DNA of 37,157 bases, from assembly GCA_903829945.1 (NCBI GenBank), contig CAIKRV010000036.1, forward strand, positions 1-37,157. Direction: 5' to 3'. The notes under the pieces are model-generated. The model saw only the letters and a list, made by a program, of their open reading frames with translations, was not told the origin of the DNA and ran no database searches. Numbering within the stretch: the first letter of the stretch is position 1; every line of letters begins with the position of its first letter. This DNA comes from an uncultured bacterium (GTDB taxonomy: Bacteria; Bacteroidota; Bacteroidia; CAILMK01). The position numbers were made by a program, and so were the translations under genes. Below are positions 13,108-37,100 of this stretch, in pieces.

Positions 13108-14082
13108 TTAGTCAAAGCTTTGGTTAGAATGTTTCGCAATTTCAAGGATTTTTGCATATTCAGCACTATTTAAGTCATTATGGAAGAAATTGATAGGGTC
13201 AATCTTCTTCCCATTTTTAATAACTTCATAATGTAAGTGTGGAGCCGTGGATAATCCGGTACTGCCTACCAAGCCAATCATCGAGCCACGCTTAACTTTT
13301 TGACCGGCATGTACCAAAATCTTACTCATATGTCCGTACAAGGTTTCATATCCAAATCCATGATTGATAATGACATGCTGCCCGTATCCTGCACCATTTG
13401 GGTCATATCCTTCTACAATACCGTCCCCGGTAGCATAGATAGGTGTGCCCTTAGCTGCAGTAAAATCCAAGCCGGTATGCATTTGCATTTGCTTATAAAT
13501 GGGATGCAATCTCCAACCGAAACCGGAGGACATTTGCTTCAGAGTTTTATTAGAAATAGGTTGGATAGCAGGTAAGGATGCCAACATTTTTTCTTTACCT
13601 TTCGCCATCTCCATCAATTTGCTATAGTCTTGTGTCATGATGGACAACTTGGCAGATAGGTCATCTAATTTCTTGGCAGAAGCAATAACTAATTCTGATC
13701 CGGGAATACCTTCATCAGCTTTATATTTATTATTACCACCGGTACCGGCATTTAACACCGTGGATGGCAATGGGTCAGCTTCAAAAATAACCCTATAGAG
13801 CTTATTGTCTTTTTCTTCTAACTCCACCAATGCGGCATTGGCCTTATCCATCTTTTTGTTCAGGTATTCAACCTGATGCTTATAATAACTGACCTGATTT
13901 TTGAGCTCTTTTTCATCAGGCGTGGTATTTCTAAATACATTGATGGCATATACAAGGACGGCCACTAAAACCATGGTAGCCAAAAAACCGGATACTTTAA
14001 GGACGCGTTCCCAGTCTTTCGGCTTGTGAATTACGTACTTAAGGTCGTGTGGGTTGAAGTAGTATTTGAATTTCTTTGACAT
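13108..14082 (-). CDS. M23 family membrane-anchored murein endopeptidase
   Basis: A 324-residue protein from the ATG at 14082 (MSKKFKYYFNPHDLKYVIHK); the frame also allows a GTG at 14091. One N-terminal membrane helix (VSGFLATMVLVAVLVYAINVF) is followed by a periplasmic coiled coil (about residues 55-95) and then the LytM/M23 domain. Zinc ligands are visible in MHTGLDF (H and D) and in HLHYEV. The YGQHVIINHGFGYETLYGHM segment supplies the catalytic histidines. The catalytic set looks complete, so it is probably an active peptidoglycan hydrolase rather than an EnvC-like activator. Its promoter lies at 14102-14133. Confidence 0.93.
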   Translation of the reverse strand: MSKKFKYYFNPHDLKYVIHKPKDWERVLKVSGFLATMVLVAVLVYAINVFRNTTPDEKELKNQVSYYKHQVEYLNKKMDKANAALVELEEKDNKLYRVIFEADPLPSTVLNAGTGGNNKYKADEGIPGSELVIASAKKLDDLSAKLSIMTQDYSKLMEMAKGKEKMLASLPAIQPISNKTLKQMSSGFGWRLHPIYKQMQMHTGLDFTAAKGTPIYATGDGIVEGYDPNGAGYGQHVIINHGFGYETLYGHMSKILVHAGQKVKRGSMIGLVGSTGLSTAPHLHYEVIKNGKKIDPINFFHNDLNSAEYAKILEIAKHSNQSFD

Positions 14083-14101
14083 ATACTTCACTTTTCAATT
14101 A

Positions 14102-14133
14102 CGAAGTTACCATTCAAGTTCCACCCCTCCAAA
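14102..14133 (-). promoter_or_regulatory. Promoter of the M23 peptidase gene
   Basis: On the minus strand TTTG (14133-14130), a 20-nt spacer and TAACTTCG (14109-14102) match the consensus with one mismatch in the -7 box. It gives a leader of roughly 15-20 nt to the ATG at 14082. Confidence 0.5.
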
Positions 14134-14173
14134 AACTATGCCGTTATACTTTTGTTAAGGTTGCTTACATAAT

Positions 14174-14235
14174 TGTGGATAAAACTTGTAATCTGCTAGA
14201 AGATAATAATATGGCATTTGTGAATATGTGGATAA
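14174..14235. other. Cluster of DnaA-box-like sites (candidate origin or DnaA-regulated site)
   Basis: Two perfect DnaA boxes (TGTGGATAA, the reverse complement of TTATCCACA) lie at 14174-14182 and 14227-14235 in the same orientation, 53 bp apart (about five helical turns). A third, 8/9 match TGTGAATAT (14219-14227) directly abuts the second. The sites lie in the largest gene-free gap of the window (14083-14384, 302 bp), which is AT-rich. A TAG-AAG-ATA-ATA triplet run follows the first box near 14196-14209. Whether this is an origin cannot be decided from the window alone. Confidence 0.4.
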
Positions 14236-14334: not shown

Positions 14335-14362
14335 AAAAGCACCTTAACGATAAGGTGCTTTT
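14335..14362 (-). terminator. Intrinsic terminator of the 3-hydroxybutyryl-CoA dehydrogenase gene
   Basis: Perfect 12-bp arms AAAAGCACCTTA (14335-14346) and TAAGGTGCTTTT (14351-14362) enclose a 4-nt loop. On the minus strand the stem runs into eight U residues. It lies 22 nt beyond the stop of the gene at 14385. Confidence 0.9.
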
Positions 14363-14384: not shown

Positions 14385-15275
14385 TTATTTTTTGAACATG
14401 GAGGATACTTGCAAATCCTTAGAACCCGCGATGTATTTATAGAATCCTTCCCCGCTTTTTGCTCCTAAATACCCGGCCGTAACCATGTTTTTAAGCAAAG
14501 GACAAGGGGCATATTTAGGATTTCCAAATCCCTCATACAATACATTGAGGATGGATAAACATACATCTAAGCCAATAAAATCAGCCAATTGCAATGGCCC
14601 CATGGGATGCGCCATCCCTAATTTCATTACGGTATCAATTTCTTCTACTCCTGCAACTCCTTCATAAAGTGAGTATATAGCCTCGTTGATCATGGGCATT
14701 AATATACGATTGGCTACAAATCCCGGATAATCATTGACTTCGGTCGGTGATTTGCCCAATGCCTTGGAAAGCGCTAAAATAGAAGTAGTGGTAGCATCAG
14801 AAGTGGCATAACCGCGAATCACTTCAACAAACTTCATCACCGGTACCGGGTTCATAAAATGCATCCCAATAACTTTGTCGGGACGCTTGGTCACCGAACC
14901 AATTTTAGTTATGGAAATGGAAGAGGTATTAGAGGCTAATATGGTATTAGGACCGCTGAATTCATCAATTTTCTTAAATAAATCCAGTTTAATATTCAAA
15001 TTTTCAGTGGCCGCTTCAATAACTAAATCGGCCGTTGAACAAGCTGCTTTTAAATCAGTACTCGGATGAAGATTTGAAAGTGTTTTTGCCTTTTCTTCCT
15101 CAGTGATTATTTGTTTAGAGACCTGCCGATCTAAATTCTTGGAAATGGTATTCATCCCTCTATTTAAGGCTTCATCATTTATATCAATTAAATGAACTGT
15201 ATAATGATACATTGCAAATACATGGGCAATGCCGTTTCCCATGGTACCGGAACCAATAACTACAATATTTTTCAT
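14385..15275 (-). CDS. 3-hydroxybutyryl-CoA dehydrogenase
   Basis: A 296-residue NAD-dependent 3-hydroxyacyl-CoA dehydrogenase (Hbd/PaaH type) that interconverts acetoacetyl-CoA and 3-hydroxybutyryl-CoA. The Rossmann motif GSGTMGNGIAHVFA is at residues 8-21. The catalytic His is in VIGMHFMNPVPVMKFVEVI, and the C-terminal domain motif NDYPGFVANRILMPMINEA is complete. It is a stand-alone enzyme with no fused enoyl-CoA hydratase. It could act in butyrate-type metabolism, fatty-acid or amino-acid breakdown; no other pathway gene is adjacent. It has a consensus promoter and its own terminator, so it is a single-gene unit. Confidence 0.94.
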   Translation of the reverse strand: MKNIVVIGSGTMGNGIAHVFAMYHYTVHLIDINDEALNRGMNTISKNLDRQVSKQIITEEEKAKTLSNLHPSTDLKAACSTADLVIEAATENLNIKLDLFKKIDEFSGPNTILASNTSSISITKIGSVTKRPDKVIGMHFMNPVPVMKFVEVIRGYATSDATTTSILALSKALGKSPTEVNDYPGFVANRILMPMINEAIYSLYEGVAGVEEIDTVMKLGMAHPMGPLQLADFIGLDVCLSILNVLYEGFGNPKYAPCPLLKNMVTAGYLGAKSGEGFYKYIAGSKDLQVSSMFKK

Positions 15276-27957: not shown

Positions 27958-28338
27958 ATGAAGCGCATCTTCTTATTCTGCCATTTAGCCTTAATTGTTT
28001 CATCTTGTAATGGACCTCAGAAGGTTGAAATTGTTAATAAAACCAATCAAACCATTCGGGTGACTTTATTTAAGAAGGGCGTTTTTATTACCTCCATACC
28101 TTATGATTCTTCTTTTTTAGAAAATAATTTGGAATGTAGAATGACCAAAGTTGGTGCCGGTGAAAGTCTTAGTTTATACCGAGGTTTAGCAGGAGATTCT
28201 ACTTTTAATATAAATAAATTAAATTTTGAGAAAATTCAAATTGAAAGTTCTCAAGGGCATATAACAGCCACTCGAGTTATGATTCCTTCCTTGTTTTGTA
28301 AACACAAGCAGGAGTATATTCTGGAAATAAAACAATAA
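27958..28338 (+). CDS. Small lipoprotein of unknown function
   Basis: A 126-residue protein from the ATG at 27958 (MKRIFLFCHLALIVSSCNGP), with a lipobox IVSSC and lipidated Cys17. The mature part is short and strand-rich (KVEIVNKTNQTIRVTLFKKG; GAGESLSLYRGL; YILEIKQ), which suggests a small beta-sandwich. No known family is recognised. The TTG at 27907 is not used because the -7 box lies downstream of it. A weak hairpin (GGACT/AGTCC) followed by T residues lies after the stop near 28340-28365. Confidence 0.8.
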   Translation: MKRIFLFCHLALIVSSCNGPQKVEIVNKTNQTIRVTLFKKGVFITSIPYDSSFLENNLECRMTKVGAGESLSLYRGLAGDSTFNINKLNFEKIQIESSQGHITATRVMIPSLFCKHKQEYILEIKQ

Positions 28339-28386
28339 GGACTATTATTCTTAAGTCCGGTTTTTAATTTTTAATCATGGAAAGGA

Positions 28387-29459: not shown

Positions 29460-30434
29460 ATGTCCATAGGTCTCGAGCAAATTAAAGCTCCAATCAGCAA
29501 TGAAATGCGCGAATTTGAAACCAAGTTCCGTGATGCCATGCGCACCAAAGTTGGCTTGCTGGATAGGATAATGACCTATATCGTAAAACGCAAGGGCAAA
29601 CAAATTCGTCCTATGTTGGTTTTTTTATCTGCGGGGGTATGTGGTCCCATTTCTGATAAAACTTTTCGTGGTGCAACGCTGGTGGAATTATTACATACCG
29701 CAACTTTAATACATGATGATGTGGTAGATGAATCCTTACAACGGAGGTCATTATTTTCCATCAATGCTTTATGGAAAAATAAAATTGCAGTTTTGGTCGG
29801 AGATTATTTATTGGCCAGAGGTTTGTTACTTTCTGTGGATAATGAAGATTTTGACTTATTGAAAATTTCTTCCACCGCTGTAAGGTTGATGAGTGAGGGG
29901 GAGCTTTTGCAGCTTGAAAAAAGCAGAATGATGAATTTTAGAGAAGATGTTTATTTTGATATTATCAGAATGAAAACGGCTTCCCTAATTGCAAGTTGTT
30001 GTGCTATGGGTGCACAATCCATCCACGCAGGCATAGAGCAGGTAGAAAAATTGCGTCTTTTTGGTGAAAAGGTGGGCATTGCTTTTCAAATAAAAGATGA
30101 TTTATTTGATTATGAAGAATCCGGAACCGGTAAGCCGGGCGGCTTGGATATTAAGGAGAAAAAACTAACGCTTCCGATTATTTATGCATTAAATAATTGT
30201 TCGGATGCCAAGCGGAAAAGTATCCTTAAATTAATAAACAATTTCAAGAATGAAAAATCTCAATTACAGGAATTGTTTAAATTTATTGATGAGCATGGTG
30301 GCATAAAATATGCACAAAGTAAAATGGCAAGTTATCAACAAGAAGCTTTTGATTTGCTTGATACTTTCCCTGAATCTACCTATCGTAATTCATTGCGAGA
30401 TTTAGTACTTTATACCACCAGTCGAAATTATTAA
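29460..30434 (+). CDS. Polyprenyl diphosphate synthase (trans-isoprenyl, octaprenyl-type)
   Basis: A 324-residue all-helical prenyltransferase that extends an allylic diphosphate with isopentenyl diphosphate. The first Asp-rich motif is HDDVVD (Asp86-Asp90, followed by RR), and the second is QIKDDLFDYE. KRKGKQIRPMLVFLSAG is the conserved N-terminal substrate region. The size and motif spacing fit long-chain synthases (octaprenyl/solanesyl), which in Bacteroidota supply the menaquinone side chain. The start at 29460 agrees with the family N-terminus and with the promoter directly in front. Confidence 0.95.
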   Translation: MSIGLEQIKAPISNEMREFETKFRDAMRTKVGLLDRIMTYIVKRKGKQIRPMLVFLSAGVCGPISDKTFRGATLVELLHTATLIHDDVVDESLQRRSLFSINALWKNKIAVLVGDYLLARGLLLSVDNEDFDLLKISSTAVRLMSEGELLQLEKSRMMNFREDVYFDIIRMKTASLIASCCAMGAQSIHAGIEQVEKLRLFGEKVGIAFQIKDDLFDYEESGTGKPGGLDIKEKKLTLPIIYALNNCSDAKRKSILKLINNFKNEKSQLQELFKFIDEHGGIKYAQSKMASYQQEAFDLLDTFPESTYRNSLRDLVLYTTSRNY

Positions 30435-34148: not shown

Positions 34149-37100
34149 TTAAGTTGAAATATGGATAGGGAACTGAATATGAATAGCTAAGCCATTCCCT
34201 TTTTCGTTAATATAATTTAAATTCCCTCCAATTTCCTCCAATCGTTTTTTCATATTGTTAAGACCATTTCCGTTTTTAAATGATTGGGAATTCAATTGAT
34301 TTATTTCTTCATTTATTCCTTTTCCATTATCAACGATCCATAAATGAAAAACATTTTGTAAAATTTCAATTTTGAGACAAACTTCAGTGGCCTCGGAATG
34401 TTTTAAAATATTATTTAAGGCTTCTTTAAAACATAAAAATAAATTTCTTCGTTCATCCGGATTCAACGGGTGGTCGGATATTTCATTAGGAAATTCTATG
34501 ATAATTCCTATAGATGAATTTTCAAAATATTCATAAGCATAGGCTCTTAAAAATGCAATTAAACTCTTTAAATCATCATTTCTGGGATTCATGGCCCATA
34601 TTATTTCTTGTAGTCGTTCCGTCAAATCTCTCGCGGATTTTGATAAATGTTGTAATTTATCATTAATATCTTTGTTATCTTTAATTTCCAAACTCGCCAA
34701 ATGACTGATCATTGAAATTTTAGTTAAACCTGATCCTATATCATCATGAATATCTCTTGAAATTCTATTTCTGATTTTTTCAATTTCATTTCTCCGCTCT
34801 AAAGCAATGAGCTTTTTTTCTAATTTTCTATTGATAAAAAAACGCAGAACTCCATAAATAAAAGCTAGAATTATAATTCCGATGAAGCTTAAAAACCACC
34901 ATGTTTTCCAATAGGGTGCTTTAATTTTTATTTTTATTATTTGTGTCGGAGCTGACCAAAGTTCATCATTATTACTTGCCTTTAAATATAAAGTATAAAT
35001 TCCGGGCTCTAAGGAACTGTAACGAACTTGCCTCCTCCCTGATGAATAATACCATTTATCTTCCAGTCCTTCTAGCTTTGAAGCATATTTATTTTGTTTC
35101 GGATTTGAAAATTCTAATGCTGAAAATTCAAAGGAAATTGTATTTTTATTATAGGGTAATTCTATATATTTTTTTAATAAAATGGAGGTGTCTAAATTTA
35201 TAACTTCATCAAAAATCTTAAATTCGGTCAATTGTATTTTGGGTGTATGGGGATTAATGGTAATATTACTCGGATAAAAATAATTAAATCCATTAACGCC
35301 ACCAAAAAATAGTTCTCCACTCTTCGATTGATAAAATGCCCCGGTATTGTATTCATTGGATTGAAGTCCATCCTCTGTAGTATAATTCTTGAAACTTTCC
35401 TTCTGCGGATTAAATTGAGACAAACCTTTATTGGTGCTGAGCCATAAATGTCCTTTCTCATCTTCTTCAATGCCGTAAATATAATTGTCCGGCAATCCCG
35501 ATTTGATATTATAGATTTTTAATAAATCATAATTCAAATTAAACTTCATTAACCCAATATCTGTAGCCGCCCAAATGATTTTGTCTTTTGATTTTAAAAA
35601 ACATTGAAAACTGGTATGAATAATATTTTTATTCTCATGACAATTTGGCTTTAATAAATTATTGGATCTTAGTATTCTGAAACCATTGCTTTCAGTGCCA
35701 AGTATTACATCTTCATGATTATCATAAATACATTTGGCGGCCAGTATTATTTTATTATTGATGCGGATGAGCTCCTTGTTTTTATTTAAAGTAAATAAAT
35801 ACCCTTGGGAAGAAACCAAAAGTTTCCCGTTTGATAAAGTTTTAGCACATATTATTCGTTGATCTGCTAATTGCGATTGAATTTTGATGCGGGTAAATTT
35901 CTTTGTTTGGAATGAAAAATAACACATTCCTTTTTCTGTGCCGATCCATAAGCCGCCGGGAGCACCATTAATATTGTTTATAATATTACTGGGTAATGAT
36001 TCATTCGTGTGTTCATTATTGGTATAGTATTGAATTTTGGTTCTGGTTTTATCTATACAAATAATTCCTTGGTCTAAAGTTCCAACATATAAATTTTGAT
36101 TAGAATCTTCATAAAAGCATTTAATAAAATTGGTGCTTAACTTTATATCACTGCTATTTGATTTGGATGCCAAATGAAACTTTATTTGATGTTTGCTAAT
36201 CATAAATGCACCATCGCCATCTGTTCCTAACCAGATATTATTGGAGCAATCCTGATAAAAACGAATAATATGTTTTAAAGAATATCCATTACTACTAATA
36301 AATCGATGTTCATTATTATAGCTTTCAATTAAATTCCAATTAGGATCATAAGTATTTATTCCTTCATTAAGAATGGCAACATAGGTTATCCCTTCACTGC
36401 TTTTTATAACATCTATTACAGATTTATTTTTTAATTTATCAATTAAACGGATTAATTTATTTTGTGCAATTGAATAATTCCAGATGCCGTTAGATGTGCA
36501 TATAATAAGACTATCTTTATTAAATTTTCTTAAGCCAAATATTTTGGTTTCCTTAGGTAATTTTAAATTTTGATAACTTATTTTTCCACTAATAAAATTG
36601 ATGTTACATAATTTATGTTCATGGGTAGCCAGCCATACATCCTTGGCATCCATGGCAGCTGTTGATTCAACGATTGATTTTTCAGCAGAAGAAAGTAGTT
36701 TTAACGTGTGTTTTTTGACATCATATATTACAATTCCTTCCGAACGTCTCCAAAGATATAATTGATCGCCATTTTGCCCTAATGGTAGTATGGCTTTGTT
36801 GTGTATTTCTGATAAATCAGGTAAAGTTATTTTCTTTATAGTATTGCTTAGGGGATCGTATAAATTTAGTCCGTCTTCAGTGCCGATCCATAATTGTCTT
36901 TTTTTATCAATATAAAACCCTCTGATGGTATTATTGGATAATCCCAAGGATTGGTTGGGATCTTTTTTATAGGTAGTGAATGAATATGCATCAAATTTGT
37001 TTAATCCGTCAGCGGTACCTAACCATAAAAAATGTGATGAATCTTGGATAATACAATATACGGAATTTTGAGATAAACCTTCATTTACGCTGTATTGTGT

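Follow-up and report, generated by a model that had tools for sequence, protein, structure and literature searches.

Two perfect DnaA boxes standing in the same orientation in a noncoding gap at about 14.2 kb of the window (the whole stretch of 37,157 nucleotides analysed here) are real and non-random, and they probably form a DnaA-responsive promoter element, apparently genus-specific, of the neighbouring peptidoglycan endopeptidase-like M23 gene. The original prediction had put forward a replication origin or, alternatively, a DnaA-regulated or titration site. The origin reading is refuted to the extent that a fragmented genome allows; the alternative is supported by the conservation of the boxes, their spacing and their distance from the gene in a second species of the genus (G001), and by an enrichment of boxes in intergenic DNA.

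Table 1. Features in and around the gap that holds the DnaA boxes (positions are those of the window).
Feature	Position	Strand	Basis and remarks
M23 peptidase gene, presumed regulated gene	13108-14091	minus	Domain match; orthologues in relatives
TAGTTTTTG, possible Bacteroidota-type -7 promoter element for M23	14130-14138	minus	Inferred from sequence
Perfect DnaA box TTATCCACA, proximal to M23 start (~-92)	14174-14182	minus	Sequence match; G001 counterpart perfect, at -94
TAG/AAG/ATA run, proposed DnaA-trio	14196-14209	plus	No conservation; probably incidental
Degenerate box ATATTCACA, two mismatches	14219-14227	minus	Tandem with distal perfect box, 8 bp offset
Perfect DnaA box TTATCCACA, distal to M23 start (~-145)	14227-14235	minus	Sequence match; G001 counterpart perfect, at -147
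Intrinsic terminator of the 3-hydroxybutyryl-CoA dehydrogenase gene	14335-14362	minus	Sequence
3-hydroxybutyryl-CoA dehydrogenase gene, upstream neighbour	14385-15275	minus	Adjoins M23 in G001 and G002 too

The two perfect boxes were confirmed as predicted (Table 1), 53 bp apart from start to start, in an AT-rich noncoding gap bounded by the M23 gene and the 3-hydroxybutyryl-CoA dehydrogenase gene. The window holds five perfect 9-mers where 0.52 are expected, and none of 100 shuffles yielded five or more, or a same-strand perfect pair at comparable spacing. That total includes a copy at 29834-29842 that was overlooked when just two perfect copies were claimed outside the gap. The abutting third box had been credited with one mismatch and in fact carries two; the sequence TTATCCACANATNCACA occurs as a single copy in this genome. 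The gap itself is not clearly the largest of the window, as had been stated, the interval 28004-28386 between listed open reading frames being longer. The genome as a whole (97 contigs, 2.9 Mb) contains 45 perfect boxes. Only one equally close perfect pair occurs elsewhere, 63 bp apart at positions 35418 and 35481 of contig C2; it lies within a sodium:solute symporter-like (permease) gene and was for that reason rejected as a comparable site, which leaves the 14.2-kb pair as the only intergenic one.

Our comparison within the genus involves two species, this genome and G001, whose M23 protein is 86% identical and whose M23 gene is flanked by the same genes, with additional DNA between them. 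Both perfect boxes are present there exactly 53 bp apart, the degenerate third box is retained as AAATCCACA, and the distances from the M23 start (-94/-147, as against -92/-145 here) agree to within 2 bp, whereas most of the intervening and surrounding DNA has been replaced. As a background, 6.1% of 9-mers are conserved across aligned stretches of the two genomes; of the perfect boxes in this genome, nine recur at the aligned position in G001, some of them within genes. Both species thus have DnaA boxes upstream of M23 that are conserved with it, and the proposed check of related genomes came out positive in G001 for the boxes, their spacing and their gene distance. It came out negative outside the genus: G002, from the same family, has the same neighbour genes and no boxes upstream of M23, and none were seen there in the other relatives examined from the family and order. 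As far as can be seen from two species, the element therefore appears to be genus-specific.

The strong terminator noted at the right end of the gap was confirmed and just belongs to the 3-hydroxybutyryl-CoA dehydrogenase gene. A TAG/AAG/ATA run is also present as described, but its interpretation as a DnaA-trio fares poorly, there being no counterpart at the same place in G001. Between the boxes and the M23 gene lies the possible promoter element, and G001 reads CTTTTGG at the corresponding place. The catalytic domain of the M23 protein resembles those of the peptidoglycan DD-endopeptidases MepM and ShyA, with scores below their equivalog cut-offs, and its relatives among named genomes, at about 53% identity or less, are Bacteroidia.

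Perfect boxes favour intergenic DNA throughout this genome. Of those read in context, 16 of 44 were intergenic, compared with 7.8% for 9-mers permuted from the same letters (p 9e-8). No other of the 1680 permutations had as many intergenic copies as TTATCCACA in the stretches analysed, a ranking in which the count is inflated by the choice of some stretches for holding boxes, with the intergenic fraction unaffected. Genes preceded by an intergenic box include dnaB, gyrA, alaS, apaG, serC and carB as well as the M23 gene. Upstream of dnaB, a perfect and a weak box occur at -119, and G001 has a match, TTGTCCACA, with a weak AATCCACA, also at -119. With at most one mismatch allowed, 13 of 27 genomes have a box in the 260 bp upstream of dnaB, and 12 of 24 have one in the same interval before gyrA. 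The control promoters, those of M23 outside the genus and of mutS2, gave only 2 of 45; their partial overlap with coding DNA may lower the chance rate.

The same boxes (at most one mismatch) can be viewed locus by locus: at the dnaB loci L226-L252 and the gyrA loci L256-L279, they lie 80-260 bp upstream in roughly every second Bacteroidia genome examined. A DnaA box precedes alaS by about 130 bp in this genome and in G001, but on opposite strands (L072:4051; L220:1499), and alaS and M23, which are divergent neighbours in many relatives, are apart in this genome.

What the analysis establishes is the sequence, its conservation, the intergenic enrichment and the unchanged direction of replication described below; DnaA binding, regulation and its sign are inferences. 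The DnaA protein of this genome carries the box-reading motif GGRDHSTV in domain IV and, judged by sequence, should be able to read TTATCCACA. It would bind the tandem of perfect and degenerate box as well as the single perfect box 53 bp away; the boxes are in the sense orientation of M23, some 90-155 bp before its start codon, and bound DnaA would there set M23 transcription. Because the boxes are sense-oriented and upstream of the possible promoter element at 14130-14138, DnaA would more likely be an activator than a repressor, although this sign is a guess. The output of a cell-wall endopeptidase-like enzyme would in this way be tied to DnaA activity, and hence to the replication cycle. The M23 element may belong with other DnaA boxes placed close to promoters in this genome, among them those of dnaB, gyrA, alaS and apaG. 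A bolder extension, for which we hold out some hope while thinking it rather doubtful, is a Bacteroidia DnaA regulon centred on the dnaB and gyrA promoters, to which the peptidoglycan endopeptidase-like gene was added in this genus, and through which initiator activity would directly couple helicase supply, supercoiling and cell-wall growth.

The datA locus of E. coli is a DnaA reservoir that limits free initiator. A similar role, by titration or inactivation, is the main rival to promoter control and in our judgement an unlikely one: the boxes would limit free initiator, and their place before M23 would be incidental. Perfect boxes are clustered, and some of those in genes are kept in G001 (the permease pair with its 63 bp spacing, and three boxes on contig C85), a pattern that suits either titration or regulation; moreover, initiation in B. 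subtilis is held back by box clusters that lie away from oriC (PMC5295017). However, three boxes are few, an incidental position does not account for a distance from the M23 start held within 2 bp though the intervening DNA turned over, and the genome-wide preference of boxes for intergenic DNA extends to the promoter regions of replication genes. Regulation and titration could both hold.

The conserved boxes within genes deserve a description of their own. The symporter-gene pair is kept in both species (L061:10418, 10481; L223:6752, 6689) despite the rarer Ile (ATC) and His (CAC) codons that it entails. Elsewhere, three perfect boxes within 1.6 kb are likewise all kept in both species (L077:1064, 2302, 2647; L159:6660, 5349, 5004), in or beside mtnA-like and metallo-beta-lactamase-like genes, the latter of which has an in-frame stop in this genome.

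Conservation in itself only shows that something reads these bases, and the reader could be a different regulator with a DnaA-box-like recognition sequence. We regard this as improbable, given the exact match to the consensus, the three boxes in the same orientation and the recurrence of the same word at dnaB and gyrA. A chance cluster without function is more improbable still: boxes with at most one mismatch are indeed not enriched in the window (12 found against 12.6 expected), but the perfect box is enriched in intergenic DNA, and the exact spacing and the distance to the gene are conserved between the species.

The origin reading was examined through strand asymmetry. The proposed check by cumulative GC skew was replaced by strand-specific codon usage in sampled stretches, because a genome fragmented into 97 contigs does not permit a cumulative skew curve; how far plus- and minus-strand genes differ was measured in 20 of its stretches, the window included. 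GC skew at fourfold sites already splits these stretches into two classes. A model of leading versus lagging codon usage was trained on the 19 other stretches, with the window excluded, and the class with more G- and T-ending codons, as is expected of leading strands, was taken as leading. In controls, the halves of one stretch were concordant in 19/19 cases, and 228 of 279 genes (82%) were concordant with their own stretch. The score of the window, to which genes on both strands contribute, climbs steadily (+31.6 to the left and +55.2 to the right of the site), with the plus strand leading on both sides. A single direction throughout the window beats an origin at 14.2 kb by about 64 nats, a figure that assumes independent codons and is hence too large; the 19/19 agreement is independent of that assumption. 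Reversing the assumed polarity does not help, since the window lacks a switch under both polarities. Such a test could in principle miss an origin that had moved recently, but the boxes date back at least to the divergence of the two species.

We therefore rejected an origin at the 14.2-kb site, where strand asymmetry does not reverse and the trio beside the boxes is absent from G001. That the boxes are the chromosomal oriC retains only a minimal chance, even though they are the genome's sole close intergenic pair of perfect boxes in AT-rich noncoding DNA and no denser cluster was detected elsewhere with the patterns tried. The site has three boxes (two perfect and one weak), compared with about 13 beside nadA in the oriC-like clusters of another family of the class, and parS is on a different contig.

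Other candidates for the origin were also considered. Contig C85, with its three conserved perfect boxes, was rejected as the true origin: the boxes are in or near genes and there is no convincing switch. A pattern search for dense box clusters elsewhere in the order returned none that was convincing. A parS-like site is found at the ybeY-mnmG boundary on contig C75 of this genome, and the same boundary carries one in most genomes of the order read in context (L178:3573-3586; L179, L181-L186). It is expanded in G005 into an array of at least 7 copies with a 99-bp period (L185:9203-9809), with more copies on other contigs. We attempted to locate the origin near parS and mnmG in another relative from the order (G006), where the strand signal proved too weak. 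Two further families of the class, f42 and f5, have clusters of about a dozen DnaA boxes next to nadA (L037, L038, L052), which are likely their oriC and illustrate how a complete cluster looks; the G126 assembly breaks at such a cluster. In G104, DnaA boxes flank a very AT-rich stretch by an acyl-CoA-ligase-like gene (L049:1437-1820), an oriC-like layout.

With a false origin candidate removed by strand-specific codon usage, a test is at hand that is usable on fragmented genomes. Our results also draw attention to the DnaA boxes that lie near the dnaB and gyrA promoters in Bacteroidia at large, and the proposed DnaA-responsive element before M23 would connect a cell-wall enzyme with initiator activity in a concrete way that experiments can test.

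A promoter element made of DnaA boxes is a known kind of thing. DnaA is well established as a transcription regulator in other bacteria (PMC4447404), division genes included (PMC10532879). A limited literature search returned nothing on DnaA as a transcription regulator in Bacteroidia, and neither the M23 target nor the class-wide dnaB and gyrA pattern was found in the literature searched, which is no proof of novelty.

Three known systems invite comparison with the site. The basal unwinding system of oriC consists of DnaA boxes, a GC-rich spacer and a DnaA-trio (PMC7561715); the likeness lies in the tandem DnaA boxes and the nearby TAG/AAG/ATA run, whereas here the trio is missing in G001 and the direction of replication is unchanged at the site. 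DnaA-regulated promoters such as those of sda, ywlC, trmE-noc and ftsL in B. subtilis and ftsZ in C. crescentus likewise have boxes in front of a gene at a distance from oriC (PMC4447404, PMC10532879), but here the lineage is an uncultured one of the Bacteroidia and the target would be an M23 endopeptidase-like gene. The DnaA-box clusters outside oriC in B. subtilis and the datA locus are, similarly, small groups of boxes away from the origin (PMC5295017); in contrast to these, the site described here has three boxes only, and their fixed distance from the gene start argues for a promoter role.
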